From positions 9,567 through 30,685 of the forward strand of contig JACNFQ010000071.1 in assembly GCA_014384545.1 (NCBI GenBank): 21,119 nucleotides of DNA. The letters are read 5' to 3'. Under the pieces are notes generated by a model. It saw only the letters and a list, made by a program, of their open reading frames with translations. It had not been told where the DNA came from and made no database searches. This DNA comes from a bacterium. GTDB lineage: Bacteria; UBP7; UBA6624. How positions within the stretch are numbered: the stretch's first letter is position 1; every line of letters begins with the position of its first letter. The position numbers and the translations under genes are program-made. Of this stretch, positions 3,727 to 18,070 are shown in pieces.

Positions 3727-5787
3727 ATGGAAAGAAGGGAGATTCTAAACCGAGGGTCGGTCATCAAGACCCTCGCCCGAATGATACTGGGAGGGATGAT
3801 GGGGTGGGTTCTCTTTCAGTCAATCGCTTCCCGCCAAGCTGTCCCTAACCTCCTGCTATCCCACCTAGAGCCCCCTTCTATTCGGCTCTTGGCATCGGAC
3901 GATACGCCCTTGACGATTGAAGGAGGAGGTGGACGGTTTCGCTTTGCTGACGCTTTCACAGGAGACCCCTCCATTGATACGCACCGTTCCACAACGCTCT
4001 CCCTCCTAGTCTCATCCCTTCTTGCAGCAGAAGACCACCGTTTCTTTGAGCATAGAGGAGTCGATGGGGCAGGCTTGGGCAGAGCAATCCTGACAAACAT
4101 AGATAGACGAAGTATGGTTCAAGGGGGTAGCACCCTGACCCAACAAGTGGCACGAACCGCCTTCCACTCTGCGATTGGGTCTGAGGATAGCCTGAGAAGA
4201 AAAGCTCGAGAAGCGTTCGTTGCTCTGAGGCTTGAACGAACTCTCTCCAAGGAGGAGATTCTTGAAGCGTGGTTGACTTGGGTGCCCCTTAGCCCCTTTG
4301 AACCAGGCATTCTGAGTGCTTCCCAACGCCTATACTCTCGCCCCCCTTGGCTCTTGGAACTTCCCCACCTTGCTCTCTTGTCTGGATTGGCAGCTGCACC
4401 TTCTTTGTGGGATCCGCTACGCCACCCTAAAGAAGCTCTTGAACGCCGCAACCGCGTTCTTGACCGCATGGTTGAACTCCGTTTCATCTCCCCCTCTCAA
4501 GGAAAAGACGCAAAGTTGAGAGGACTGGAACTCTCTCCACCGCCCCACCCGATCGCTTCTTCTCACTTTCTTGAGACGATAAGAGAAATCACGATTGATG
4601 ATGACCTCAATCTAGAAGTCGTAACGACTCTAAATCCCCTCTTCCAAAAAGCAGCTTGGGAAGCTATTTGCGTAGCAACTTGGTGGGCGAAAGCAGAGTC
4701 TGAAATCCCTACTTTAGAGGGGGTTGCTCTCGTATCTATTGATCCCCGAACCGGTGACCTCCTCGCTTATGCTCCCCACAACAACTTCCAAGACATGGAC
4801 TTCCCAAAAGAGGGAGAAGAGATACCCGGCGGAGAAACTGACTGTCTAGATGCTCATCTGCGCCCTCTTGGGGGAGGCTTCGATTTTGGGCGTGCCACCC
4901 GATCCCCAGGCTCAGCTGTCAAACCCTTCATTCTGGCTGCAGGGATGGAAGCAGGTCTCCTCAATCCTCATGACCCCGTCTTTGATGGCCCGACTTCCTT
5001 TTGGAATGAAGAAGATTCTTCTCTTTACCAACCCAAGAATGCGGATGGTTATTTGGGATTGGTGGGATGGACCGAAGCATTGGCAAGTTCCAGCAATGTC
5101 GTCGCTGTCACATGGGCAGACCAAGTAGGAACGCGTGCTTTGACGGAGAGTTGGTCACAACTGGGATTTGAAGAAGAGTGGGGACCATGGCTTTCCAGTG
5201 CCTTGGGAACGACGCCTGCAACCCTTTTAGAGATGGTCTCTGGATTTGCCACGATTGCAGGAGATGGGATTCGCCATCCCCCTCGCTGGGTTCTCTCTAT
5301 TGAAAGGGAGGGGAGCGTCCAATCTCTTCCCCTCGTCCAAGAGCGTGTTCTCTTGCCTGAGACTTCGCGCACCCTCGTTTCCCTATTGGGACAGGCTCTC
5401 CCTGAGGGAACGGGCTTTAGGGCTGTTCAATGTGATGTAGGTCTACCCTCCATCGCAGGACCCTGTCTTGAAGATTGGATGCCTCCTTGGGTTGCTGGGC
5501 CAGGTTCCCCCCCAGTCCTCTTTGGGAAAACGGGGACGAGTCAAGCGAACAGGGATGGGTGGTTTATCGGTTGTATTCCCTCCTTATGCACGGGCATTTG
5601 GATGGGCACTAAAGAAGCAGGGGGGGGGCTTGTAGGTGGGAACCTACCTGCTCTCGCTTTTAATCTCTACATGCGTCGTATCGCCCATCTCCTTGACTGG
5701 GTCGTTTTTCCCCCCCCTCCCCCCTCTCTATCTTTGGGTTCACTGGGGCTCAATGAAAGAAAAGAGTCGGAGAATATTCTGCCCTAG
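3727..5787 (+). CDS. Class A penicillin-binding protein, PBP1C-like
   Basis: 686 residues from the ATG at 3727. An envelope enzyme that polymerises lipid II (glycosyltransferase) and cross-links peptides (transpeptidase). Residues 18-33 are hydrophobic and form a signal anchor. The GT51 domain has AAEDHRFFEHRGVD (E102 is the expected catalytic acid), QGGSTLTQQVART (132-144) and SKEEILEAWL. The transpeptidase domain has all three motifs: SAVK (S396, K399), SSN (455-457) and KTGTS (601-605). It ends soon after, with no added C-terminal domain, so PBP1A versus PBP1C is uncertain. The reading frame is open further upstream (GTG at 3685), but that would overlap tyrS. A possible -10 box, TATCCT (3710-3715), ends 11 nt before the ATG. 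Unusual runs of 9 G (5620-5628) and 8 C (5710-5717) lie near the 3' end. Confidence 0.9.
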   Translation: MERREILNRGSVIKTLARMILGGMMGWVLFQSIASRQAVPNLLLSHLEPPSIRLLASDDTPLTIEGGGGRFRFADAFTGDPSIDTHRSTTLSLLVSSLLAAEDHRFFEHRGVDGAGLGRAILTNIDRRSMVQGGSTLTQQVARTAFHSAIGSEDSLRRKAREAFVALRLERTLSKEEILEAWLTWVPLSPFEPGILSASQRLYSRPPWLLELPHLALLSGLAAAPSLWDPLRHPKEALERRNRVLDRMVELRFISPSQGKDAKLRGLELSPPPHPIASSHFLETIREITIDDDLNLEVVTTLNPLFQKAAWEAICVATWWAKAESEIPTLEGVALVSIDPRTGDLLAYAPHNNFQDMDFPKEGEEIPGGETDCLDAHLRPLGGGFDFGRATRSPGSAVKPFILAAGMEAGLLNPHDPVFDGPTSFWNEEDSSLYQPKNADGYLGLVGWTEALASSSNVVAVTWADQVGTRALTESWSQLGFEEEWGPWLSSALGTTPATLLEMVSGFATIAGDGIRHPPRWVLSIEREGSVQSLPLVQERVLLPETSRTLVSLLGQALPEGTGFRAVQCDVGLPSIAGPCLEDWMPPWVAGPGSPPVLFGKTGTSQANRDGWFIGCIPSLCTGIWMGTKEAGGGLVGGNLPALAFNLYMRRIAHLLDWVVFPPPPPSLSLGSLGLNERKESENILP

Positions 5788-5796
5788 AATCCACCT
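5785..5796 (+). promoter_or_regulatory. Candidate leaderless promoter of mrp (-10 box TAGAAT)
   Basis: TAGAAT at 5785-5790 ends 6 nt before the mrp ATG, so a start site about 7 nt downstream would fall on the A of the ATG. The TAG of this box is also the stop codon of the upstream penicillin-binding-protein gene. No Shine-Dalgarno is seen. The call rests on the same arrangement recurring at five other genes here. No TTGACA-like -35 element is evident. Confidence 0.55.
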
Positions 5797-6654
5797 ATGC
5801 CCTCGAACAAGAGTCGTGAGAACCCCCCCAAAAAGGGGGGCGTTTCAAAGGTGGGCGTATCCCTTTTGGTCGGCTCGGGGAAAGGGGGGGTAGGGAAATC
5901 TACCCTCTCTGCGAACCTCGCGTTGGCTCTCCTTCGAGAAGGGCTTTCTGTGGGGCTCCTCGATGGTGATTTATACGGACCAAGCCAGTCCCATCTTTTC
6001 AATCTCCCTGATGGCGCAAAGGGCACAAAAGAAGGGGGTATCCTTCCTCACCAAGCATTCGGTCTGGAGATCGTCTCGTTGGGGTCGATCGTTGAGAAAG
6101 AGAAGGCGTTGCTTTGGCGTGGTCCGGTACTACATCGAGCTCTTGAGCAACTCGTCACCGATGTCATTTGGGGGGAACTAGATGTCCTGATTGCCGATTT
6201 GCCCCCTGGAACAGGGGATACGCTACTCAGTCTCCACCAACTCCTTAGACCCGCAGGGGCGATTCTTGTGACAACCCCCCAGGAAACGGCTCTCTTGGAC
6301 GCCCGCCGAGCCTGGAGTGCTTTTCGTAAACTAGGGTGCAACGTTCTTGGAGTGGTCAATAATATGTCGGGGACACTTTGTCCCCATTGCGGCGAAACCT
6401 ACCCTCTATTTCCCTCTGCCATTTCCTCGTTCCTTTCTTCCACAGGCTTGCGGCTCCTCGGAGAGATTCCTTTCCAACCAGAAGTCGCTCTGTGGGCTGA
6501 ATCTGGGCAACCTATACTCGCTACCGACTCCATTGGTAACCAGGGAGAACCATGGTCCCATCTAGGAGCTACGGTGGCAAAAGAAGTTCGCTCTCTTCTG
6601 GCTAAAGGTAAGGGACTCAATAAGATTGGTGGATTGCATGTAGAGAGGAGTTAG
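5797..6654 (+). CDS. mrp: Mrp/ApbC-type Fe-S cluster carrier P-loop ATPase
   Basis: 285 residues. A cytoplasmic MinD/ParA-fold ATPase of the Mrp/ApbC/Nbp35 family, which binds and delivers iron-sulfur clusters. It has the deviant Walker A GKGGVGKST at 28-36, DGDLYGPSQSHLF soon after, the family segment ADLPPGTGDTLLSLHQL, and the cluster-binding CxxC in MSGTLCPHCGE (C195, C198). It lacks the N-terminal DUF59/MIP18-like domain that many Mrp proteins carry, so it is the short form. The ATG is 9 bases past the upstream stop. A run of 7 C, 5 A and 6 G at 5823-5840 would place a strong hairpin over codons 9-15. It converges on the SLC13-type transporter with a 9-bp gap. Confidence 0.9.
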   Translation: MPSNKSRENPPKKGGVSKVGVSLLVGSGKGGVGKSTLSANLALALLREGLSVGLLDGDLYGPSQSHLFNLPDGAKGTKEGGILPHQAFGLEIVSLGSIVEKEKALLWRGPVLHRALEQLVTDVIWGELDVLIADLPPGTGDTLLSLHQLLRPAGAILVTTPQETALLDARRAWSAFRKLGCNVLGVVNNMSGTLCPHCGETYPLFPSAISSFLSSTGLRLLGEIPFQPEVALWAESGQPILATDSIGNQGEPWSHLGATVAKEVRSLLAKGKGLNKIGGLHVERS

Positions 6655-6662
6655 CCCTCCTC
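6645..6662. terminator. Weak inverted repeat between convergent genes
   Basis: GAGGAG, a 6-nt loop (TTAGCC), then CTCCTC. It spans the mrp stop codon and the short gap before the SLC13-type gene ends, so it could act on both strands. The stem has only 6 bp and no T-run follows, so a terminator role is a weak inference from position. Confidence 0.25.
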
Positions 6663-6663
6663 G

Positions 6664-8472
6664 TTACGAAAGGGGGGTAAGGGGGTACACCTTGAGCAAA
6701 GCCCAACATGCAGCAACGCCTGTAACGACAGTCATCGGTATACCAATGCGCGCAAAATCGGCGAATGAGTACCGACCTAACGACCAAACCATCGTATTGG
6801 TCTGATACCCAATGGGCGTCGCAAACGAAGCGCTTGATGCCAAGGCAACCGCCATCGCAAAAGGAAGGGGGTTTACATCCAGAGCTGCAGCGATACTTAT
6901 TGCTAGGGGCAAGAAAGCAATAGCAGTAGCCCCATTAGACAAGAAACTCGTTAAGAGAGCGACCAAGAAGTAAACAGCAAAGAGGGAAAGAGCGGGTCCC
7001 ATCACCAAAAGGGAAGGACGGACTGCCTCAACCAGAATCGAAAAGACCCCCACATCTTCCATCACCAAGCCCCACGCCATAAAGCCAATCAACAACGCTA
7101 AAACCTGATGGTCAATCGCTTGAAAAGCCTCATCCACACGCACAGTGTTAAGGAGTATCATGCCACCCACACCTATGAGGGCAGCGAAGTGGTGAGGGAT
7201 GCCTAGGGCGACCATCCCCACAAAAAGAGAGAGAAGCGTAACCGCAACGGCTGCATGTCTTCTGCTGCCAAAACCAAAAGGCACTTTTTGAATCACCAAG
7301 AGATCGCTTCGGGGTTGGCTAAGCGCTTCCAACACATCTTTCTGGCCGTGAACCAGCAAGACATCACCTACTTGTAAGCGATAGGGTCCCATCTTCCCCG
7401 TTCGTGGTTCACTTCCATGCCTAATCGCCAAAGCTGTAATGCCAAACCGACCTCGGAACGAAAGCTCTCGTATCGTCTTTCCAATCAAATCCGAGCCGGG
7501 AACAACGAGCGCTTGCCCCAAATGGAGACCCTCTTTTTGAGCCATCTGTAGCTCCTCAGACAAGGGCACGATGGACAACCCAAACCGCCTACAAAGGTCG
7601 GGGCACGCTTCAGGTCTAACCCTTAGCATTAGCTCGTCGCCCACACCTAATATACTTCCCGCACGCGGCGCCAAATCTACCTGATGTTCGGGTGAATGAA
7701 GCTCGACGATATGAAGGTCTTCTTCTTCCCAAAGATGGGCTTCTTCAATCGTCTTCCCTGCGAGACTGCTTCCTCCATTTATTCGAACGACCACGATGAA
7801 TTGGGCAAGGGCATAATCCCTCACCAAATCCTCTCTAACTTTCTTATCGGGCAAGGAATGTCTGCCCACAAAGGCCAACCAAAGCCCTCCCGCAACAGCG
7901 ACAGCACCGCCAGGGATAAGGAATGCAAAGAGAGAGATGCGGTCGCCCGTAGCTTCAAGAAACCTCTGGGCAACCAGCAGGTTTGTTGACGTCCCAATCA
8001 ATGTCATCGTCCCCCCAAGAATGGCAGCGTACGAAATGGGGATAAGGAGTCGACTTGCCGAAATACCACTTCGCCGTGCCAACTCCAAGCCCACAGGAAT
8101 AAAGATGATAACGACTGCTGTATTGTTGATGAGAGCAGAAAGGAGAGCCAACAATAAGAAAAAGAGAATGATCCTCCCTCTCTTTCCTCGTTCTCGCCAC
8201 TCTCCCTTCCCTACCAACCAATACCCCAATTTATTCATCGCTCCTGAAACTTGGACGGCATGACCCATCACAAATAGAGCTGCGATCGTAATCACTGCCG
8301 GGTCCACAAAAAGAGAGACGAGTTTCGCTGCCGTCTCTTCTCCTCTTCCAAAAAGAATAAAAGTAAACAGGACACCCCAAAGTATCGCTCCTACCCTATC
8401 TTGTGCCACCTTACCCGATACCAAGGCAACGATCGCCAAAAGCCCCACAACAGCCACAAACCAAGGGCTCAT
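6664..8472 (-). CDS. SLC13/DASS-family transporter with two TrkA-C domains
   Basis: 602 residues of a polytopic inner-membrane transporter. The N-terminal membrane half runs to about 205 and carries NNTAV (116-120) and IGTSTNLLV (159-167). Two soluble TrkA-C (RCK-C) modules follow, at about 222-295 and 310-390, each ending in a GVGDELMLRV- or VGDVLLVHG-like strand. The C-terminal membrane half has LSNGATAIAFLP near 510 and TPIGYQTNTMVW near 552-563. SLC13 members with this layout and a GTSTN motif include sulfate permease-like and dicarboxylate carriers; the substrate cannot be read from sequence. TrkA-C domains often bind a regulatory ligand. The ATG overlaps the stop of the NYN gene (ATGA at 8469-8472), so the two are co-translated. 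Confidence 0.88.
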   Translation of the reverse strand: MSPWFVAVVGLLAIVALVSGKVAQDRVGAILWGVLFTFILFGRGEETAAKLVSLFVDPAVITIAALFVMGHAVQVSGAMNKLGYWLVGKGEWRERGKRGRIILFFLLLALLSALINNTAVVIIFIPVGLELARRSGISASRLLIPISYAAILGGTMTLIGTSTNLLVAQRFLEATGDRISLFAFLIPGGAVAVAGGLWLAFVGRHSLPDKKVREDLVRDYALAQFIVVVRINGGSSLAGKTIEEAHLWEEEDLHIVELHSPEHQVDLAPRAGSILGVGDELMLRVRPEACPDLCRRFGLSIVPLSEELQMAQKEGLHLGQALVVPGSDLIGKTIRELSFRGRFGITALAIRHGSEPRTGKMGPYRLQVGDVLLVHGQKDVLEALSQPRSDLLVIQKVPFGFGSRRHAAVAVTLLSLFVGMVALGIPHHFAALIGVGGMILLNTVRVDEAFQAIDHQVLALLIGFMAWGLVMEDVGVFSILVEAVRPSLLVMGPALSLFAVYFLVALLTSFLSNGATAIAFLPLAISIAAALDVNPLPFAMAVALASSASFATPIGYQTNTMVWSLGRYSFADFARIGIPMTVVTGVAACWALLKVYPLTPLS

Positions 8473-9119
8473 GAGCTTTGAGGTGCGAACGAGATCATCG
8501 TTCGCTTATTTAAGGAGTGGAACTTATCCGCATCACTGCGCAATCCTGAAGCGACAGAGCCGCGGGGACCAGCGACTTCCACATTGACACCTTGACTTTT
8601 TAGATGGGCAACGAGAGGAATGAAATCACCATCTCCAGAAACGAGTATCTGAACATCTGCCAATTCTCGGTGGGCATGGTCCAACATATCCACAGCAATC
8701 TGAATATCAACGCCCTTCTCCTTCGTCTCTGTCGCTTCTTCCACGAGAAAAGTTCGGATTCGATTCTCTAGTTCGGTCAGTGCCACACTCAATGTGGGTG
8801 TCGCATCAATATGCCCCCCCACCGATTGGAGTTCCTTGAGGAGATCACTGGGCAAGAGACGTCGTTCAACCTTGAGGCTTCCTGCACGAACCTCCATCCT
8901 TTCTTGAAAGTTGAGGTATTCAAAGAACTTCAACTTCTTGTCATGCCCCATTGGGTCATCCTCCCTTGAAGGGAGCGATGAGTAGTAATAGGCGCGCAAT
9001 AAGTGACGCTCGCCCACCAAATGGGACACCAGCTTCGGAATATCTATGCGGTGGATCCCCATTGCCGCGTGCCCCATAAAGAGGTTTTGCCCATCAATGT
9101 AGAGAAGAACCTTTTCCAC
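8469..9119 (-). CDS. NYN-domain (LabA/DUF88-type) putative ribonuclease
   Basis: 216 residues from the GTG at 9117-9119. The NYN fold belongs to the PIN-like nuclease group. Conserved acidic positions are visible in LLYIDGQNLFMG near the start, EKGVDIQIAVDML in the middle and LVSGDGDFIPLV, followed by GVNVEVAGPRGS. These suit metal-dependent RNA cleavage; the target is unknown. The frame extends 13 codons further to a GTG at 9158, but I prefer 9119 because the family begins at this point and a TAGGAT box ends 7 nt before it. It is translationally coupled to the SLC13-type transporter gene, an unexpected pairing. Confidence 0.85.
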   Translation of the reverse strand: MEKVLLYIDGQNLFMGHAAMGIHRIDIPKLVSHLVGERHLLRAYYYSSLPSREDDPMGHDKKLKFFEYLNFQERMEVRAGSLKVERRLLPSDLLKELQSVGGHIDATPTLSVALTELENRIRTFLVEEATETKEKGVDIQIAVDMLDHAHRELADVQILVSGDGDFIPLVAHLKSQGVNVEVAGPRGSVASGLRSDADKFHSLNKRTMISFAPQSS

Positions 9120-9132
9120 AGCGAAAATCCTA
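9120..9132 (-). promoter_or_regulatory. Candidate leaderless promoter of the NYN gene (-10 box TAGGAT)
   Basis: On the minus strand TAGGAT occupies 9132-9127 and the GTG start follows after 7 nt (TTTCGCT). This is the same geometry as at mrp, fumC and gcvT. It supports the shorter NYN protein, because the box would otherwise lie inside the coding sequence. Confidence 0.5.
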
Positions 9133-9182
9133 TACCCTACGATGAACAGACCACTCACCTGAGAGCATGGTGGAATTCGTTC

Positions 9183-9195
9183 TAGAATCTATACT
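9183..9195 (+). promoter_or_regulatory. Candidate leaderless promoter (-10 box TAGAAT) for the gene at 9196
   Basis: TAGAAT at 9183-9188 ends 7 nt (CTATACT) before the ATG at 9196. No Shine-Dalgarno lies between. Together with the NYN promoter it makes a divergent 76-bp intergenic region (9120-9195). Confidence 0.55.
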
Positions 9196-9972
9196 ATGGA
9201 CTGGTTGGTTTTGATTCATGACAGGGAGAAAGGAGAAGGTGTCTTCTTCCATGACCAAGGAGAACTCCCTTACCCTTTCTTCCTCGGTCCAGCTCCGTGG
9301 CCGTCACTGCGTCGCCTTGATGCAGGAGACACCCTGTGGCTTCTCACACGAACACTCCATGGATCGGGTACAAGGTGGTGGTTGGTGGGAAATCTCCAAA
9401 TAGAGAGTCAAGGAGAAAGCGAACCTTGGGTAGATCCTTCCACATTTTGGCTATCAGGAAAACCCCAAGTTCTCCAGAAACCCCGTCGAGCCGAGAAACT
9501 CCTCAAATCTCTTTCCCTAGAGAAATTGAATGGGCTGGGTCCAGCTACGGGCTGGGCACGCCGACTTGGAAAACCGATTCGACTAACGCCCCAGGATGGT
9601 GATCTCCTTTCACCCTCTTGCAAGAGGGTTGTCCCCCTCATTAGGGCGACCCCTAAGGAAGAACCCGAGCGTATCCTCCTTTCGGTATTGGAACGAGCGT
9701 TTGGACCTTTTCATCAAACCGAATCCCCTCAAGGATTGCCCGCATGGGAACTACCGGGGAACAAGGGTGTTCGTCTCCTGACTGATGGAGACGGTCGACT
9801 CCATTTGCTCACACTCTATGGCTCGTTGAACGCTTCCTTTATCTCTTCCTTGCTTGACGCAGTCCTGCTCCTAAACGCAAGGGGGCACTCATGGGAAGTC
9901 AACACCTTTTCAGATGGGGAGAACGATTCCGGCGTTGCGTTTGTCTTCTCTCCTCAGGAAAGAAGAAGCTAG
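9196..9972 (+). CDS. Uncharacterised protein
   Basis: 258 residues that I do not recognise. No signal peptide or membrane segment is apparent. The N-terminal 70 residues look like a compact beta-rich unit (MDWLVLIHDREKGEGVFFHD, then GDTLWLLTRTLHGSGTRWWLVGNL). The middle (about 80-155) is basic and proline-rich. The C-terminal 90 residues (PERILLSVLERAFGPF, GVRLLTDGDGRLHLLTLYG, SSLLDAVLLLNARGHSWEV) look like an alpha/beta domain. It has its own leaderless-type promoter, and its TAG stop overlaps the stop of the convergent coiled-coil gene by 3 bases. Coding status rests on the long open frame, the promoter spacing and the tight fit to its neighbours. Confidence 0.75.
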   Translation: MDWLVLIHDREKGEGVFFHDQGELPYPFFLGPAPWPSLRRLDAGDTLWLLTRTLHGSGTRWWLVGNLQIESQGESEPWVDPSTFWLSGKPQVLQKPRRAEKLLKSLSLEKLNGLGPATGWARRLGKPIRLTPQDGDLLSPSCKRVVPLIRATPKEEPERILLSVLERAFGPFHQTESPQGLPAWELPGNKGVRLLTDGDGRLHLLTLYGSLNASFISSLLDAVLLLNARGHSWEVNTFSDGENDSGVAFVFSPQERRS

Positions 9973-10379
9973 GCACCCAACCCTCTTCGTATGAGATCAA
10001 GAGTCGATTGGATCGTGACCAGACGATCTATCAATGCATGGGTCTCTCGTTCTCTCCACTCTCTTTCTTGACACGAATCCTCTCCGTTTGTATACCTTTC
10101 GGTGGGCAAATTCTCCAATCTCTCCATAATTCCTCTCACCAGAGAGAGTAAGACACTTTCCCTTTGAATGAGCCGCTTCTCGATCTCTCCAAGTTGCTCA
10201 AGGATATCAAGAGCACTCTCCTTCTGTGCGATTCTCTCCACCAATCTCGCAAGGGGTTCGGTCGTCACTTGGCCCTGTTCTTCATCTGATAACAGACGGT
10301 GAATATCTGCGAGTTTCTCCTCTACATAGGTTAAACGCGTCAGAATATGGTGGTCGTAACTCGCTGAACCAAGTTTCAT
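9969..10379 (-). CDS. Small uncharacterised coiled-coil protein
   Basis: 136 residues, highly charged, with almost no glycine or proline after residue 40. Heptad-like spacing of hydrophobic residues runs through most of it (LTYVEEKLADIHRLL, LARLVERIAQKESALDILEQ, LGEIEKRLIQRESVLLSL, LIDRLVTIQSTLDLI). No enzyme motif or membrane segment is seen. The ATG at 10377-10379 is preceded by a long purine-rich leader with several Shine-Dalgarno-like AGGAGG or AAGGAG copies, including GGAG 7 nt upstream. It is therefore not leaderless, unlike its neighbours. It converges on the unknown gene at 9196 with overlapping stops and diverges from fumC. Confidence 0.7.
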   Translation of the reverse strand: MKLGSASYDHHILTRLTYVEEKLADIHRLLSDEEQGQVTTEPLARLVERIAQKESALDILEQLGEIEKRLIQRESVLLSLVRGIMERLENLPTERYTNGEDSCQEREWRERETHALIDRLVTIQSTLDLIRRGLGA

Positions 10380-10390
10380 CCCATCTCCTT

Positions 10391-10426
10391 CCTCCTAACC
10401 CCCTCCTTTCCACCCCTCCTAACCCC
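10391..10426. repeat. 12-bp direct repeat between the coiled-coil gene and fumC
   Basis: CCTCCTAACCCC occurs at 10391-10402 and 10415-10426, a period of 24 bp. On the minus strand each copy reads GGGGTTAGGAGG, so the coiled-coil gene's leader contains duplicated Shine-Dalgarno-like sequence. It could be a local duplication or a protein-binding site; sequence alone does not decide. Confidence 0.5.
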
Positions 10427-10441
10427 TTTACTCCTTCGGGG

Positions 10442-10455
10442 TAGAATCAGTTTCC
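10442..10455 (+). promoter_or_regulatory. Candidate leaderless promoter of fumC (-10 box TAGAAT)
   Basis: TAGAAT at 10442-10447 ends 8 nt before the TTG start at 10456. No Shine-Dalgarno precedes the TTG. The neighbouring ATG at 10460 is out of frame with fumC. Confidence 0.5.
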
Positions 10456-11790
10456 TTGAATGACCCTCTTTACGGAAAGGAGACCCGCATGGCGCTCTCT
10501 AACTTTCCCATCTCTGGATGGAGAATGCCTCTTCCTGTCATCCACGCACTGGGGACGATCAAGCACGCAATGGCACTTGCTAATGGCGAGCAGGGGTTGA
10601 TTCCCCAAGATATCTCCACCGCTATCGCCCAAGCGTCAAAGGAGATTGCTGAAGGAAAGTGGGATAGCGAGTTCCCAGTGGATATCTTCCAAACCGGTTC
10701 TGGTACGAGTACACATATGAACGGAAATGAAGTCTTAGCATCTCGGGCTTCTGCACTTCTGGGTAGAGAGATAAACAGTCATGATGAAGTCAATCGTGGC
10801 CAGAGCAGCAATGATGTGATGCCTTCTTCCATTCAAGTCGCTGTTGTTCTGTCGCTAACTGGAGATTTGATTCCTGCTACAGATTCTTTGGTTGAGGCAT
10901 TGGAGAGCCTTTCCCATAGGGCTAAAGGGATCGTCAAGACCGGTCGTACACACCTAATGGATGCCCTTCCCATCCTCATGTCTGATGAGATTGATGCATG
11001 GAAAGAAGCAATTGGTGAGAGCCGCAGGCGATTGCGGGCGGCTTCCTTTGATGCTTCTGCTCTCCCCCTAGGAGGAACCGCTGTGGGAAATGGGGTCAAT
11101 GGGGATCCCCAAACCACAACGCGAGCTTTTGAGATTCTTTCTGAAGAGACGGGTGTTCCTTTTCGGTGCATGGAGAGCCCCTTCAGGGGCTTGTCGCTCC
11201 CCAACTCGCTCCTAGCTGTCTCTTCATCCCTAAGAGATCTTGCCATTGCTCTTTTCAAGATCTCGAATGACTTGCGTTGGATGAACAGTGGACCCAAAGC
11301 TGGGATTGGTGAGATTGAACTTCCCAAGCTCCAGCCTGGTTCTTCTATTATGCCTGGCAAGGTAAACCCTGTTATTCCTGAGGCGGTTGCTCAAGTCGCC
11401 GCTCAGGTGATTGGAAATGATGCTACCGTATCTTGGGCTGTAGCTTCGGGGAACTTCCAGCTAAATGTGATGTTTCCTCTTATCTCAAAGAACTTATTGG
11501 AACCGATTCATCTCTTGTCAAGAGGGATGGATACACTCCGAACTAAGGCGCTTGAGACTCCCTCATGCAGGAAAGAACAGATGGAGGAAATGCTTTGGAG
11601 AAACCCCATTCTAGCGACAGCCCTCAACCCCCATATCGGGTACGAAGCGGCAGCAGAGATTGCGGGTATAGCTTACGCCGAAAACCGATCCGTTCTAGAA
11701 GTCGCTATGGAAAAAACGGAGTTAGGTGAAGAACGTTTGCGGGCGTTGATGAATCCTTCTAAGATTGCAAGGGGTCCATCTGCTCCATGA
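10456..11790 (+). CDS. fumC: Fumarate hydratase, class II
   Basis: 444 residues. It interconverts fumarate and malate in the TCA cycle as a cytoplasmic homotetramer of the fumarase/aspartase superfamily. Motifs are QTGSGTSTHMNGNEVL (79-94), HDEVNRGQSSND (109-120), TGRTHLMDALP with the proton-relay His166, and the superfamily signature GSSIMPGKVNP (295-305) with catalytic Ser297. I chose the TTG at 10456 because the residues it adds (LYGKETRMALSNFPIS) match the conserved YGxxT...NF block. Even so, the protein lacks the 10-20 residues that usually precede this block. An internal ATG at 10489 has a perfect AAAGGAG 6 nt upstream but would remove part of the block. Its TGA overlaps the next ATG (11787-11790). 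Confidence 0.93.
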   Translation: MNDPLYGKETRMALSNFPISGWRMPLPVIHALGTIKHAMALANGEQGLIPQDISTAIAQASKEIAEGKWDSEFPVDIFQTGSGTSTHMNGNEVLASRASALLGREINSHDEVNRGQSSNDVMPSSIQVAVVLSLTGDLIPATDSLVEALESLSHRAKGIVKTGRTHLMDALPILMSDEIDAWKEAIGESRRRLRAASFDASALPLGGTAVGNGVNGDPQTTTRAFEILSEETGVPFRCMESPFRGLSLPNSLLAVSSSLRDLAIALFKISNDLRWMNSGPKAGIGEIELPKLQPGSSIMPGKVNPVIPEAVAQVAAQVIGNDATVSWAVASGNFQLNVMFPLISKNLLEPIHLLSRGMDTLRTKALETPSCRKEQMEEMLWRNPILATALNPHIGYEAAAEIAGIAYAENRSVLEVAMEKTELGEERLRALMNPSKIARGPSAP

Positions 11791-12488
11791 TCTTTCGGGC
11801 GCTCAAGGCGCTCGGAGACCCATTCGTACTCTTCCCCTCTTGGCTCCTCTTCTCATCCCTCCTACTCTTTGCTCAAGCGCTCTTTCCCCTTTCCTCCTTT
11901 TCAGCTGAGGCGTTCCTCTCGGGAGAGGTTAACCTTGGATTGGGGTCTCAAATCGCTCTGGGTCTCGCATCGGCTTGGGTTTGGGGTTCTGCTTTCTTGC
12001 TTGCCCATAGTCGCCTCCTATCGGGAATCGCTCCTCCCGCCTCTTCCCCGATTGCTCACGCCTTCTTTCGCCTCCCTTCCATCTTCTTAGTAACGACACT
12101 CCAAGGCTTTCTTTTGGGACTCGTTTCTTCAATCGGTGCATCCCTTTACTTTCTACCTACCTTGGTGCTTTGGACGCTCCTTTTCTTTGCCCCCGCCCTC
12201 GCCTTTTTAGGAGCCCCACCCCTCAGTACATTCCATGCATCAATGAAACGAGTATGGCCCCAGTTCTTCCCGTACCTGGGATCTCTCTTTGCCTTGGGGT
12301 CTTTTTTCATGGCAGGGGTCTTCTTCCTCTCCATTCTTCTCTCACTACTCTTCTCAGCTTCCTCTCTTGAGGAGATTCCCTTTTGGGTCGCCCCCATCAT
12401 CTTGGGAGGTGCATTCCCCATCCTCTCCGTGGGGTGGGCGGTTATGACCGCAGGGTCTTTTCCTCCCAAGGAGCGAAAGAAAGATTAG
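11787..12488 (+). CDS. Uncharacterised integral membrane protein
   Basis: 233 residues, very hydrophobic, with about five or six likely membrane segments: WLLFSSLLLFAQALF near 20-34, IALGLASAWVWGSAFLL near 56-72, IFLVTTLQGFLLGLV, then LVLWTLLFFAPALAFLG, then FALGSFFMAGVFFLSILLSL, and a last one near APIILGGAFPILSVGW. It ends in a basic tail (PPKERKKD). I do not recognise the family. The ATG overlaps the fumC TGA, so it is probably co-translated with fumC. Its last 47 bp lie inside the 3' end of lplA on the opposite strand. It may have no functional link to fumarase beyond shared expression. Confidence 0.75.
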   Translation: MIFRALKALGDPFVLFPSWLLFSSLLLFAQALFPLSSFSAEAFLSGEVNLGLGSQIALGLASAWVWGSAFLLAHSRLLSGIAPPASSPIAHAFFRLPSIFLVTTLQGFLLGLVSSIGASLYFLPTLVLWTLLFFAPALAFLGAPPLSTFHASMKRVWPQFFPYLGSLFALGSFFMAGVFFLSILLSLLFSASSLEEIPFWVAPIILGGAFPILSVGWAVMTAGSFPPKERKKD

Positions 12489-13227
12489 GGTAGTTAGGAA
12501 GAAACTCCTTTACTTTCGCAAAGACCGTTTCTGGCTCTATCTCTACAATCTCCCTTTTGAGTATCGTAGAGACAGATTTCTTCCATCCTGCTTCCGCCTC
12601 AGCCACAGACTGTGGAACCCCAAGAAGTGACAAGTTTGATAGGTAATCTGAATGGGGTATGCCTGGGCGATCAGGAGGAATAGGTAAGAACCTCTCCATC
12701 TCCTCTAACTCCCTCAAGAGGAGTGTGCCATGCCACAACAACGCACTCCCCCGGCGGGCTTGTGCGGTGCCAGATACCTTCCTCAACGATTCGTGTCCAG
12801 CCAAGATATCACTAATCCGCCCCACGCCCGTGTTCAACCCCAAAGACGAAAGCCAATCTGTCAGGAATCGTCCACACCATAAGAATGAGGACTTGGGGTC
12901 CAACGGGATCTTCCAGTACTCCCTATCAAGGACAAGAGAGAGGTTTAGGTTTCCCTCTCCGTGAAGGACTGCCCCACCACCAGAGCACCGCCTGTAGATA
13001 CCCACACCTGATTCAATGCAGGACTCTCTGTGAACGACTTCACCAACTTTCTGAGACCTCCCAACGACGACCGAAGATTGGCCCACCCAAGATCGAAGCC
13101 AAACCTTGTCCGTCCCTCTATTCGCACGCCTAACATCCTCCAAGAGCATCTCTTCACAAGCGAGGTCGGTTGCTGGCTCTCCCGCACCAAACCGGAGAGA
13201 GAGCAGGGGGCTAATCGGAGTAGGCAT
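12442..13227 (-). CDS. lplA: Lipoate-protein ligase A family protein
   Basis: 261 residues from the ATG at 13225-13227. The biotin/lipoate protein ligase fold transfers lipoyl or octanoyl groups to lysines of carrier domains. Seen are WLRSWVGQSSVVVGRSQ, RRCSGGGAVLHGEGNLNLSL (79-98), RKVSGTAQARRGSALLWHGT with the conserved Lys150, and HGTLLL. The last gene of gcvT-gcvH-gcvP-lplA, so GcvH Lys57 is the natural target. LplA (ligase) and LipM-type octanoyltransferases share these motifs, so the exact activity is open. The frame extends upstream to 13371, but that part lies inside gcvP; the chosen ATG gives a 17-bp overlap with gcvP. The 3' end overlaps the convergent membrane-protein gene by 47 bp. 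Confidence 0.85.
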   Translation of the reverse strand: MPTPISPLLSLRFGAGEPATDLACEEMLLEDVRRANRGTDKVWLRSWVGQSSVVVGRSQKVGEVVHRESCIESGVGIYRRCSGGGAVLHGEGNLNLSLVLDREYWKIPLDPKSSFLWCGRFLTDWLSSLGLNTGVGRISDILAGHESLRKVSGTAQARRGSALLWHGTLLLRELEEMERFLPIPPDRPGIPHSDYLSNLSLLGVPQSVAEAEAGWKKSVSTILKREIVEIEPETVFAKVKEFLPNYPNLSFAPWEEKTLRS

Positions 13228-16027
13228 CGGTGGGATCACAACCGCAATGGAAGTTTCGATCTCCCCAAACTTCGTCAATGCGAGCGACCGAGGGCCACAC
13301 TTTACCCTCCCCAACCCAAGGCAAAGGAAATGCAGCTGTTTTACGGGAGTAGGGATGGGTCCATCGCTCAACTACGAAGCTCTTTTCAGAGTGAGGGGCA
13401 TGGACGAGAGGATTATCATCCGCTGGCCAAACTCCCTTTTCTACATTTCGAATCTCCTCCCGAATAGAGATAAGTGCTTCTAGAAAGCGATCCAGCATCT
13501 CTTTGGGCTCACTCTCTGTAGGTTCAATCATCATCGTTCCAGGGACAGGAAAGGAGATTGTGGGGGCATGGAATCCGTAGTCCATGAGGCGCTTAGCAAT
13601 ATCAGTGACAGTAATCCCGTCTTTTTGAAAGCCCCGACAATCAAGAATAAACTCATGAGCGACAGCGCCTTGGCTCCCCTTGAAAAGAACGGGGTAGATC
13701 CCTTCCAATCTTCTCATCAAATAGTTCGCTGAAAGAATCGCTTGTTCGGTCGCTTCTTGTAGTCCTCTCGACCCCATCATCCGAATGTAGACCCATGGAA
13801 TCGGTAGGACCCCAGCACTCCCAAAAGGTGCAGAGGAAAGAGTCCCTAATGGAACCTCGCCACCACAGGGAACAACGGGATGGTTGGGGAGGAACGGTGC
13901 TAGGTGTTTCTTGACGACGACAGGTCCCACACCTGGGCCCCCACCCCCATGAGGAATCGCGAATGTCTTGTGGAGATTCAGGTGCCCTACATCCATCCCC
14001 AAATCACCCGGACAAACGAGCCCCACCATGGCGTTTAGATTGGCGCCATCCCAATAGACCTGCCCCCCCGCGCGATGGACCTCTCTCACGAGATCTTCAA
14101 TTCCTTCCTCAAAGATCCCATGAGTTGAGGGATATGTCACCATCAGCGCTCCCAAACGGCTCCTATTCTCCTCAATCTTCTCCCGAGCAACCTCACAATC
14201 AATACTCCCATTCTTATCACATGGGATAACGACCACATCCATCCCTGCCATAACTGCACTCGCCGGGTTGGTTCCGTGCGCCGATGCAGGTATCAAGACA
14301 ACCGTCCTTTCTCCATCACCTCTTGACAGATGGTATGCCCTAATCGTCAATAAACCAGCAAGTTCCCCTTGGCTTCCCGCATTGGGCTGAAAACTAATCT
14401 CATCAAACCCCGTTATTTGACAAAGGGATCTCCCCAAGGAAGAGATAAGCTGGGCATAACCCTCGGCATCTTCTAGGGGGACAAAAGGGTGTAATGTACC
14501 CACCTCTTTCCAGGTGATGGGCTCCATCGCTGCAGAGGGATTCAGTTTCATCGTACACGAGCCCAACGGAATCATCGATTGAGCAAGTGTCACATCTTTC
14601 CTTTCAAGCCGTTTCAGGAAGCGGAGCATTCCATGCTCGCTGTGGTGGGTATTGAATGCGTCAGCTGTCAAGAAAGAGGTCTCCCTCACTAATCTCTGTG
14701 GAATCTCCTCCTGCTCATCTTCGAGAGATAGGGAAGGGAGAGAGAAGAGCTTTGCCAACTCTTCCACATCTTGAAGTGTCGTCGTTTCGTCAAGAGTAAT
14801 TCCAATCAGATTCCTCCCAATCCTGCGCAGAAAAATCCCCTCCGCTCTCCCTTTTGCCAAAAGGGACTCTTCGTCATCTACAGTCACAACCACCGTATCA
14901 AAAACGACACCCTTATTCACCATATATCCGCCCCTCTCTAGCCCGCTCTTCAGGATTAGGGTTAGCTCTCTGATACGCTCTCCAATCGCTTTGATGCCGG
15001 AGGGACCATGCCAACAACAAGTCAGCGCTGAAAGAACAGCTAGGAGGACTTGTGAAGTGCATATATTACTTGTCGCTCTTTCTCGCCGAATATGTTGCTC
15101 ACGACTTTGGAGTGCCAATCGAAATGCGGGTGACCCATCCCGATCTCTGGACAACCCAACCATCCGACCGGGCATCTTCCTTTGGAACCGCTTCTTGGAG
15201 GCGATAAAACCTGGATGGGGTCCTCCATATCCCAAGGGGACACCAAAGCGCTGAGCACTCCCTACGGCGATGTCAGCACCCCAATCGCCCGGGGGAGCAA
15301 AGAGGGTCAACGCCAGAGGATCCACAGTTACGACGACGATCGCCCCTTTCCTTTGAGCCTTGGCTACAATCTCCTTAGGGTCCACAAACGCACCTAGACT
15401 GTTGGGGTAAGCGAACAACACCCCCGCAATCTCTTCCCCCACCTCCCACTGGGATGGCGAGGAGACCTCAACCTTGATCTCCATCGCTTCAGCGCGGGTC
15501 TGAATAACAGCTAAAGTCTGGGGATGGATATTTTCATCTACGAGGAAACCGCGTCTCTTCCCCCGCCACTCTCTAACTGTCATCGCCATACCCTCCGCTG
15601 CCGCAGTCGCCTCGTCTAAGAGAGATGCGTTGGCGATTTCAAGAGAGGTAAGGTCAATCACCATCTGCTGAAAGAGAGCGAGCGCCTCTAATCTTCCTTG
15701 AGAAATCTCAGGCTGATAGGGGGTATAAGCCGTATACCATCCCGGGTTTTCTAGAATCTGACGCCTGAGAATAATGGGTGTGTAAGTAGCGTGGAACCCC
15801 ATTCCAATATAGGACTTTCCCAGTCGATTCTTACCGAGGATGCCTCGGAGTTCAACGAGTGCTTCTTCTTCGGAACATCGTTGAAAAGTGAAAAGCTCCT
15901 CTTTGAGCAGAGATGGGGGAATCACCTTTTCTAGGAGTTCCCCCATTGTGGATAGCCCCAAAACGCGCAACATCTCTTCCCTATCCTCTCTTGAAGGGCC
16001 GATTTGGCGGTCAGAGAACCTTCTCAA
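13211..16027 (-). CDS. gcvP: Glycine dehydrogenase (P protein of glycine cleavage), single-chain form
   Basis: 938 residues, close to the 950-960 of single-chain P proteins and unlike the split P1/P2 form. This PLP enzyme decarboxylates glycine and passes the aminomethyl group to lipoyl-GcvH. The N-terminus FSDRQIGPSREDREEML is typical. The first half includes GMGFHATYTPIILRRQILEN, then WYTAYTPYQPEISQGRLEAL. The second half has MKLNPSAAMEP, then the PLP-binding Lys687 in NLHKTFAIPHGGGGPGVGP. The start is TTG at 16025-16027, chosen because it begins the conserved domain 5 nt after the gcvH stop, with GAGGGG about 8 nt upstream. It sits third in the gcvT-gcvH-gcvP-lplA run. Confidence 0.95.
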   Translation of the reverse strand: MRRFSDRQIGPSREDREEMLRVLGLSTMGELLEKVIPPSLLKEELFTFQRCSEEEALVELRGILGKNRLGKSYIGMGFHATYTPIILRRQILENPGWYTAYTPYQPEISQGRLEALALFQQMVIDLTSLEIANASLLDEATAAAEGMAMTVREWRGKRRGFLVDENIHPQTLAVIQTRAEAMEIKVEVSSPSQWEVGEEIAGVLFAYPNSLGAFVDPKEIVAKAQRKGAIVVVTVDPLALTLFAPPGDWGADIAVGSAQRFGVPLGYGGPHPGFIASKKRFQRKMPGRMVGLSRDRDGSPAFRLALQSREQHIRRERATSNICTSQVLLAVLSALTCCWHGPSGIKAIGERIRELTLILKSGLERGGYMVNKGVVFDTVVVTVDDEESLLAKGRAEGIFLRRIGRNLIGITLDETTTLQDVEELAKLFSLPSLSLEDEQEEIPQRLVRETSFLTADAFNTHHSEHGMLRFLKRLERKDVTLAQSMIPLGSCTMKLNPSAAMEPITWKEVGTLHPFVPLEDAEGYAQLISSLGRSLCQITGFDEISFQPNAGSQGELAGLLTIRAYHLSRGDGERTVVLIPASAHGTNPASAVMAGMDVVVIPCDKNGSIDCEVAREKIEENRSRLGALMVTYPSTHGIFEEGIEDLVREVHRAGGQVYWDGANLNAMVGLVCPGDLGMDVGHLNLHKTFAIPHGGGGPGVGPVVVKKHLAPFLPNHPVVPCGGEVPLGTLSSAPFGSAGVLPIPWVYIRMMGSRGLQEATEQAILSANYLMRRLEGIYPVLFKGSQGAVAHEFILDCRGFQKDGITVTDIAKRLMDYGFHAPTISFPVPGTMMIEPTESEPKEMLDRFLEALISIREEIRNVEKGVWPADDNPLVHAPHSEKSFVVERWTHPYSRKTAAFPLPWVGEGKVWPSVARIDEVWGDRNFHCGCDPTDAYSD

Positions 16028-16032
16028 CAGGT

Positions 16033-16392
16033 TTACCCCTCGTTTTCGCAGAATGTTTGGTAGGTCTCCTCGTCCATAAGCCCTTCTGCTTTGAGACCAG
16101 AGAGTATGAGCAGATGACCTTCTCCCTCCGCATCCGCATTGACCAACGAGGGGTCATCTACTACATAACGATTCAACTCTTCTACAAAACCCTCAGAAGG
16201 AGCATACGCTTGGGCACTACTTTTTACACTCTCCACTTCGGCAATCGCTTGACCTGCTTCCACCCTATCTCCTTCGGCAACCAAAAACTCAACAAAGACG
16301 ATATCTCCCATCGCTTCTGCAGCATAGGCTGTGATACCCATCCTCCCACCCGATTCATCTTCTACCCATTCGTGGGACGTCGTATATTTCAT
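16033..16392 (-). CDS. gcvH: Glycine cleavage system H protein
   Basis: 119 residues, slightly shorter than the usual 125-130. The lipoyl carrier that shuttles the aminomethyl intermediate between the P, T and L proteins. The domain is complete: YTTSHEWV at the start, GITAYAAEAMGDIVFVEF, and the lipoylation site ESVKSS with Lys57. The tail DEETYQTFCENEG matches the family pattern. Its ATG overlaps the gcvT stop (ATGA at 16389-16392), and a full AGGAGG at 16398-16403 sits 5 nt upstream inside gcvT codons, so internal operon genes do use Shine-Dalgarno initiation. Confidence 0.95.
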   Translation of the reverse strand: MKYTTSHEWVEDESGGRMGITAYAAEAMGDIVFVEFLVAEGDRVEAGQAIAEVESVKSSAQAYAPSEGFVEELNRYVVDDPSLVNADAEGEGHLLILSGLKAEGLMDEETYQTFCENEG

Positions 16393-17447
16393 CCTTTCCT
16401 CCTATAAAAAGGGAGTTTTACTCTCGTTGCCTTACGGGGTCTTCCCCCCTTCATCACAACGAGGTCTCCCTCTGGTCTCTCCCTTGAAATGAGAGCGAGA
16501 CCGATGGGGTGACCAAGAGTAGGACTAAAAAGTCCACTCGTGACCCTACCCACACACTCTTCTCCACAATAGACCTCATTTCCAAATCGAACGGGTATCC
16601 GTGTCTGAATACCCACCCTCTCTCTAGTTGAACCCTCTTCTCTCTCCTTCAATAGAGCCCCTTTCCCCACAAACGAGCCCTTATTCCATTTTACGGCCCA
16701 CTCTAACCCTGTTTCTAGGGGAGAAGTGCGGGGCGAAATATCTTGACCATGTAACGGAAAGGAAGCTTCCAGTCTAAGAACATCTCGAGCCGCCAGTCCG
16801 CAAGGACGCGCTCCCGCAGAGATAAGCCCCTCCCAAACAACGAATGCGCTCTGAAGAGGAATAAAGAGTTCAAATCCGTCTTCACCTGTATACCCTGTTC
16901 GGGCACCAGAAACCAGATTGCCCAAGATCTCCCCCTTCCCCAACCCAAACCGAGGAATCCCCTTTGATGAAAACCCCAGTTCGCTCAATGTTGCAGCAGC
17001 ATGAGGACCCTGGAGAGCGACAAGAACGATTGATTCTGAATCATCCTCCATCACCACCCCCTTACCCACTCTTTCCCTTATCCACGCCCAATCCCCATCC
17101 CTGTTCCCCGCATTGACGACAAGATTCCATAGATCCTCTTCTACTCGATAGGCGATCAGGTCATCCACAATCCCTCCCTTTTCGTTCAATAACAGAGTGT
17201 ATTGGGCTTTTCCGATCGGGACTAAAGAGAGGTCGTTTGTTACCAAAGGTTGGAGCGCCCCTAGAACATTCCCCCTTATAGAGAAAGTGCCCATGTGAGA
17301 GACATCGAATAGTCCCACATCTTCGCGAACCGCCTTCACTTCTTGAGAGACTCCTTCAGAATACCACAAAGGCATCTCCCATTCCCCAAAGGAACCCATT
17401 TTCGCACCCAACGAAAGATGGGCGTCATAAAGATAAGTATGGCGCAT
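16389..17447 (-). CDS. gcvT: Aminomethyltransferase (T protein of glycine cleavage)
   Basis: 352 residues, normal length. It transfers the methylene group from GcvH to tetrahydrofolate and releases ammonia. Seen are the N-terminal LYDAHLSLGAKMGSFGEWEM, FDVSHMGTFSIRG (47-59), KAQYTLLLNEKGGIVDDLIAYR with the conserved acidic pair at 95-96, LVVNAGNRDGDW and RTGYTGEDGFELF. The C-terminal part has LEAGLEW-like and VGRVTSG segments. It is the first gene of the run and starts at ATG 17445-17447 with a TAGAAT box 6 nt upstream and no Shine-Dalgarno, consistent with a leaderless transcript. No glycine-riboswitch-sized leader is present: only 41 bp separate it from the divergent gene at 17489. Confidence 0.95.
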   Translation of the reverse strand: MRHTYLYDAHLSLGAKMGSFGEWEMPLWYSEGVSQEVKAVREDVGLFDVSHMGTFSIRGNVLGALQPLVTNDLSLVPIGKAQYTLLLNEKGGIVDDLIAYRVEEDLWNLVVNAGNRDGDWAWIRERVGKGVVMEDDSESIVLVALQGPHAAATLSELGFSSKGIPRFGLGKGEILGNLVSGARTGYTGEDGFELFIPLQSAFVVWEGLISAGARPCGLAARDVLRLEASFPLHGQDISPRTSPLETGLEWAVKWNKGSFVGKGALLKEREEGSTRERVGIQTRIPVRFGNEVYCGEECVGRVTSGLFSPTLGHPIGLALISRERPEGDLVVMKGGRPRKATRVKLPFYRRKG

Positions 17448-17459
17448 CGGGAGATTCTA
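17448..17459 (-). promoter_or_regulatory. Candidate leaderless promoter of gcvT (-10 box TAGAAT in a palindrome)
   Basis: On the minus strand TAGAAT occupies 17459-17454 and the gcvT ATG follows after 6 nt (CTCCCG). The box is part of the perfect 10-bp palindrome ATTCTAGAAT (17454-17463), so the same TAGAAT also faces the divergent gene. Confidence 0.55.
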
Positions 17460-17475
17460 GAATAAACGACCCCCA

Positions 17476-17488
17476 TAGGATGCCCATT
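17476..17488 (+). promoter_or_regulatory. Candidate leaderless promoter of the zinc-finger gene (-10 box TAGGAT)
   Basis: TAGGAT at 17476-17481 ends 7 nt (GCCCATT) before the ATG at 17489, matching the NYN promoter in box and spacing. An earlier in-frame ATG at 17480 overlaps this box, which favours 17489 as the start. The palindrome at 17454-17463 offers an alternative forward box 25 nt upstream. Confidence 0.45.
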
Positions 17489-18070
17489 ATGTCGATTGAA
17501 ATCGTAGGAGAGGGAGAAGAAGACCTCTGCGGATGGTGCTTGGATGGACTCTCCGACGCGTATGTCGTTTGTGGCATGTGTGGTGGCAAGTACCACCATT
17601 CTTGTTGGTCTCATGCAAGGCGGTGTGCGATATCCAACTGCAAAGGTCAGCCGCTCCAAGGATTGCCTGCTCCCGTCGCTACGATACCGATGAATGTGAC
17701 AACTGATGTTGTAGAGAGAGTTCCCCCTGCTCAACCTTCCTCACCCTCCCCATCCCCTGCTCCCATAACACCTGGATTCCATTGGGGAGCTGCACTCTTG
17801 GGTCCTATTTGGGGATTTGCACATGGCGGAGCTAGCGGACTAAGGACACTCCTTTTCCACGCCCTTCTTTGGCCCTTTGGAGTTGGATGGCTAGCACCAC
17901 TTCTCATTGGGATGCTAGGGTGGGATTGGGGATGGAGGGAGCATGCCTCTCTTGGGGGAACACCTATGGAATATGTCGTTAGAGAAAGGGCATGGAATCA
18001 GGCTGGTTTTATCGCGGTAGGACTTGGTCTCATCCTGTGGTTTATCCTGAATGCGACCGGCGTCCTTTGA
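17489..18070 (+). CDS. Zinc-finger (RING-like) membrane protein
   Basis: 193 residues. The N-terminal 51 residues carry metal-ligand spacing of a RING/PHD-like finger: C14-x2-C17, C28-x2-C31, H36-x2-C39, then C46-x4-C51. This resembles prokaryotic RING-type fingers found in bacterial membrane proteins. A Pro/Ser-rich linker (about 73-92) follows, then a hydrophobic domain of about three membrane segments (GAALLGPIWGFAHG, then LLFHALLWPFGVGWLAPLLIGML, then GFIAVGLGLILWFILNAT), with conserved-looking Trp/Gly between them (GWDWGWREH). The role is unknown; a sensor or protein-interaction module is inference only. A start 9 bp upstream (17480) is possible. The TGA overlaps the TTG start of the hydrolase (TTGA at 18067-18070). 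Confidence 0.8.
   Translation: MSIEIVGEGEEDLCGWCLDGLSDAYVVCGMCGGKYHHSCWSHARRCAISNCKGQPLQGLPAPVATIPMNVTTDVVERVPPAQPSSPSPSPAPITPGFHWGAALLGPIWGFAHGGASGLRTLLFHALLWPFGVGWLAPLLIGMLGWDWGWREHASLGGTPMEYVVRERAWNQAGFIAVGLGLILWFILNATGVL

Follow-up and report, generated by a model that had tools for sequence, protein, structure and literature searches.

Leaderless genes of this kind are already known in Actinobacteria and Deinococcus-Thermus. In Deinococcus, a -10 motif lies approximately 6–7 bp before open reading frames, and its promoter action was demonstrated by reporter and RNA assays (PMC12340547). The genome studied here resembles Deinococcus-Thermus in having a TANNNT-type -10 box about 6–7 bp before the open reading frame, in the coexistence of a Shine-Dalgarno-type motif in the same genome, and in the usefulness of the box for correcting gene starts (PMC12340547). 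It differs in its box, with a fixed GA or GG at the two central positions (TAGRAT), at a GC content of 52% and in an unrelated lineage. New are the lineage, represented here by genome assemblies alone, and the TAGRAT form of the box. A 953-genome survey describes leaderless genes as TA-led, with the same position and logic of the box. As for such genes, the -10-like box of our genome stands some 10 bp before the start codon, and its enrichment at this constant distance extends over the genome. The survey gives TAtaaT for medium-GC groups, whereas our medium-GC genome uses TAGRAT; its low-GC relatives shift toward TANAAT, in agreement with the GC trend of the survey. The lineage is not visibly among the phyla listed there. 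With it, a separate one-family phylum would be added to the bacteria in which leaderless starts are numerous.

The source genome (G000; 1.39 Mb, 107 contigs, 79% complete) belongs to a phylum for which there are three genomes, all from the same family and divided between two genera. Its two family relatives are G001, which is assigned to another genus, and G002. The GC content was 52% in G000 (506 kb sample) vs. 35% in both relatives. The 16S rRNA gene was not found in any of the three genomes. A comparison of gcvP did not help to place the lineage: its best relatives showed about 50–55% identity and belonged to many phyla. Hexamer and profile statistics were obtained for the 506 kb sample of G000, about one-third of the genome, which contained 405 genes; their starts were set by coding potential and start codon, and upstream signals were not used. 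About half of the contigs in this sample were initially chosen for carrying the box, and the second set consisted of surrounding contigs taken regardless of the box. Whole-genome counts of TAGAAT and TAGGAT were independent of this choice.

The TAGRAT arrangement before start codons is real and conserved in the relatives. Among all 4096 hexamers located 6–7 nt before ATG in the 506 kb sample, TAGAAT ranked first (23 genes) and TAGGAT second (20 genes), followed by the Shine-Dalgarno hexamer AAGGAG (11 genes). The counts of TAGRAT before ATG in this sample at gaps from 0 to 11 nt were 0, 0, 0, 0, 0, 0, 26, 17, 1, 5, 3, and 0; over gaps of 0–29 nt the sole peak was at 6 and 7 nt (26 and 17 genes), with 0–5 genes at other gaps. 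The reversed decoy TAAGAT was not encountered at gaps of 6–7 nt before ATG in the sample. In the whole genome, TAGAAT followed by 6–7 nt and ATG occurred 59 times vs. 6 for the reversed pattern, and TAGGAT in the same arrangement 54 times vs. 7. At the off-distance of 16–17 nt before ATG, TAGAAT gave 10 occurrences vs. 4 for the reversed control. The genome-wide enrichment expected by an earlier sequence-only reading of this DNA was thus strong and spacing-specific. The distance of 5–9 nt which it had proposed turned out to be too wide, with the peak at 6–7 nt and fumC (TTG, gap of 8 nt) outside of it. For 42 of the 50 boxed genes, the start that had been chosen without regard to the box was the boxed one. 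ATG or GTG was present at 46 of the 50 boxed starts and TTG at the other four. TTG is usually disfavoured in leaderless translation, and some of these four genes are probably chance matches. The exact box pattern was also above control in several unrelated genomes (33 vs. 1 in G084 and 36 vs. 4 in G018), which agrees with the wide scatter of leaderless genes.

The likelihood that the boxes are accidental, or are reused TAG stop codons of upstream genes, is practically negligible. In four same-strand cases, mrp included, the TAG of the box is indeed the stop codon of the preceding gene, but decoys and other spacings were near zero, and boxes were most frequent at divergent genes, where there is no upstream stop. 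We rejected this reading on the decoy, off-spacing, and divergent-gene counts.

The window, i.e., the whole analysed stretch of 21,119 nucleotides, contains 12 TAGRAT sites, only six of which are located 5–9 nt before a credible gene start. All six boxes listed in the earlier reading were recovered with the same positions and gaps. Five of the six genes fit the strict rule, and fumC is the exception. The first box, TAGAAT at 5785..5790 (+), precedes with a gap of 6 nt the ATG at 5797 of mrp (5797..6654, +), which encodes an Mrp/NUBPL-type ATPase (Pfam ParA (NUBPL), 4.8e-76). In the orthologue alignment, the mrp box was not kept in G001. The TAG of this box (5785-5787) also terminates the penicillin-binding-protein-like gene located upstream (3727-5787); three further cases of such doubling were observed in the sample (L087, L092, and L101).

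The NYN-domain gene (8469..9119, −) has a TAGGAT box at 9127..9132 (−), 7 nt from its corrected GTG start at 9119. The orthologue in G001 begins at the same residue (VEKV), and its box lies 20 nt from the start. The suggestion that the box can be used to correct gene starts was therefore borne out for this gene, and the rule should be restricted to gaps of 6–7 nt and to ATG or GTG. In this form (TAGRAT, 6–7 nt, ATG/GTG), it can serve for correcting starts and for locating the first genes of transcription units in genomes for which metagenomes are the only source. Divergently from the NYN box and 56 bp apart, a TAGAAT box at 9183..9188 (+) is followed with a gap of 7 nt by the ATG of a gene of no known family (9196..9972, +), which had no Pfam match.

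The TAGAAT box of fumC (10442..10447, +) is separated by 8 nt from the TTG at 10456. This start of fumC (10456..11790, +) agrees with that of the G001 orthologue (MNKLYGKET vs. MNDPLYGKET), in which the box lies 10 nt before ATG. As the gaps in the two genera are 8 and 10 nt, a leader of 1–4 nt is the better reading, and fumC is more likely near-leaderless than leaderless.

The last two boxes stand back to back, 22 bp apart. TAGAAT at 17454..17459 (−) lies 6 nt from the ATG at 17447 of gcvT (16389..17447, −); both the box and the gap are kept in G001 and G002. TAGGAT at 17476..17481 (+) lies 7 nt before the ATG at 17489 of a zinc-finger (Prok-RING-like) gene (17489..18070, +), whose match to Prok-RING_1 (26.8 bits) was just under the cut-off. 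The start of this gene is probably not the in-frame ATG farther upstream, at 17480, which lies partly within the box. In G001 and G002, the divergent TAGGAT opposite gcvT heads a hydrolase gene with a gap of 6 nt; the counterpart of that gene in the window is located behind the zinc-finger gene.

An exact TAGRAT search had suggested that leaderless genes are rare in G001. This conclusion was dropped after the alignment of orthologues, in which the box was found to be kept but relaxed from TAGRAT in G000 to TANRAT. When orthologues from the G001 sample whose starts could be aligned (36–74% identity) were compared, TANRAT at 6–8 nt was present for 12 of 19 genes with the box in G000 and for 3 of 90 without it (Fisher p = 6e-9). 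The box profile of G001 was broader than that of G000, with gaps of 6–10 nt. That the box is conserved in the second genus of the family speaks for its function, and the putative choice of a leaderless start at individual genes appears to have persisted between genera whose proteins are about 50% identical.

Genes for tRNA also carried the box. Of 16 tRNA genes located first in their cluster, 10 had TAGRAT 7–25 nt before the mature 5′ end, while the total expected was about 0.09. Nine of these boxes were at 7–14 nt and one at 25 nt; for the few at 12–14 nt, the explanation may be a variable start point or processing of the tRNA leader. Since tRNAs are untranslated and yet boxed, these genes indicate that the box acts in transcription, as a promoter -10 element and not as a translation signal. 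The position of genes within transcription units pointed in the same direction. At divergent genes, TANNNT occurred 6–7 nt before the start in 33 of 74 cases, compared with 5 of 74 at the control spacing of 14–15 nt and 6 of 74 for a strict Shine-Dalgarno motif. At operon-internal genes (<30 nt), 16 of 165 had the box and 41 of 165 a strict Shine-Dalgarno motif. The two signals were thus oppositely distributed, the box being commonest at divergent genes and the Shine-Dalgarno motif inside operons. In boxed genes, which had no separate Shine-Dalgarno sequence, its position was occupied by the box. The earlier observation that no Shine-Dalgarno sequence accompanies the box holds, as such motifs are concentrated in operon-internal genes.

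These data make it very unlikely that TAGRAT is a translation-initiation element, either a degenerate Shine-Dalgarno sequence or another ribosome-binding motif, on mRNAs with leaders. The box does occupy the usual Shine-Dalgarno place, TAGGAT includes AGGA, and other genes show an enrichment of AAGGAG at this gap. Against this, the box is shared with untranslated tRNA genes, is confined to 6–7 nt whereas Shine-Dalgarno spacing in G000 is spread over several positions, has no Shine-Dalgarno core in its TAGAAT form, and is distributed oppositely to the Shine-Dalgarno motif over divergent and operon-internal genes. The AGGA of TAGGAT was counted against the -10 reading of leaderless genes, and this form of the box may pair weakly with the anti-Shine-Dalgarno sequence.

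We therefore consider it highly probable that TAGRAT is the -10 element of the housekeeping sigma-70 factor and that its location 6–7 nt before ATG or GTG gives a leaderless mRNA which is read without a Shine-Dalgarno sequence. The sigma-70 holoenzyme would open the DNA at TAGRAT (core TANNNT), and RNA polymerase would begin 6–7 nt past the box, at the first letter (A or G) of the start codon. The ribosome would then bind the 5′-terminal start codon directly, without Shine-Dalgarno pairing, and operon-internal genes would initiate by Shine-Dalgarno instead. With a spacing of 6–7 nt, the transcription start is expected on the start codon, so that the mRNA would have no leader. We infer which sigma factor is used, the precise point of transcription start, the lack of a leader, and ribosome loading at the 5′ end; for the start point and ribosome loading, this is based on the spacing and on the analogy with Deinococcus. 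The leaderless interpretation of the sequence-only reading gained support from the spacing-specific enrichment, the boxes at tRNA genes, and the conservation in another genus. After subtraction of the control spacing, roughly 58 of 385 genes (15%) and roughly 28 of 74 divergent genes (38%) are probably leaderless. By such excess, the share of about 15% of genes compares with nearly a third in D. radiodurans (PMC12340547).

We regard it as unlikely that transcription from TAGRAT, taken as a -10 element, usually begins slightly upstream of the start codon and yields leaders of 1–10 nt. Such leaders would fit the fumC gaps of 8 and 10 nt in two genera, the gap of 20 nt of the NYN gene in G001, the broader G001 profile (6–10 nt), and eight genes of G000 with the box 9–10 nt before ATG. 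However, the sharp peak at 6–7 nt in G000 equals the spacing of the leaderless -10 motif in Deinococcus (PMC12340547), and a start farther upstream would fall less than 6 nt from the box.

Divergent genes often had back-to-back boxes 10–40 bp apart, some of which overlapped as TTCTAGAA. A strict box on both sides was present in 4 of 22 close divergent pairs. The bidirectional pseudo-symmetrical promoters of E. coli (PMC12825309) are similar in their close divergent -10 boxes, some of them overlapping (in G000, TTCTAGAA at gcvT), and different in that G000 has two separate boxes 10–40 bp apart, each with a predicted leaderless gene.

The absence of a -35 element noted in the earlier reading held when tested. 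The mean best match to a TTGACA-like element located 16–18 bp from the box was 2.62 of 6, within the null range (2.22–2.64, 5–95%). In a power simulation, an E. coli-like -35 element planted in 25% of sites raised the mean to 2.93 and would usually be seen; it may be present at a minority of boxed sites. Every upstream position in the 50 boxed genes had ≤0.15 bits, and an extended -10 (TGn) was absent from these 50 sites (T 0.28 at position -3, G 0.18 at position -2). A search for -35/-10 dyads in the upstream regions of G000 and G001 gave no clear peak in either genome. Pooled TAGAAT-like upstream sites showed a weak rise of TTGACA-like sequences at 17–18 bp (12 and 11 vs. 4 and 2).

One full housekeeping sigma factor (regions 1.1, 1.2, 2, 3, and 4) is encoded in G000 (L148:721-2166, −). 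In its protein (residues 443–452), the turn of the -35-binding helix-turn-helix of region 4.2 is longer by six residues (LEEVGKKLSEADGKPLTRERVRQI vs. LEEVGKKLNVTRERVRQI in the family relatives). The six-residue insertion was not found in G001, G002, or 25 sigma factors of other lineages with a readable motif, and the recognition-helix motif TRERVRQIE is intact. We assign a low probability to the idea that the lengthened -35-reading turn makes transcription rely on an unusually exact -10 alone, without -35 contact. The causal link from the insertion to the missing -35 element is unproven: G001 lacks the insertion and also has no -35 peak, so the insertion cannot be tied to the loss of -35. If the two were linked, this genome would offer a natural test case for transcription without -35 elements.

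Two further proteins with sigma-70 region 2 are present in G000, and TAGRAT is a more exact motif than TANNNT, which is used by other GC-rich lineages with leaderless genes. Both points would suit a site of a regulator or an alternative sigma factor serving one regulon. We give this explanation a very slight likelihood, as the box is used both by tRNA genes and by housekeeping genes unrelated to one another (gcvT, fumC, mrp), and TAGRAT is the commonest upstream hexamer pattern genome-wide, which better suits a general -10 element.

The housekeeping sigma proteins of all three family members (L146, L147, and L148) have an insert of about 85 residues between regions 2 and 3 (approximately residues 265–350), and NIVRRPVHM in place of the RTIRIPVHM of other sigma factors. 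In all three genomes, the region upstream of the sigma gene, which separates it from a divergently transcribed neighbour, contains a palindrome, GAGTATACTC, possibly a regulator site.
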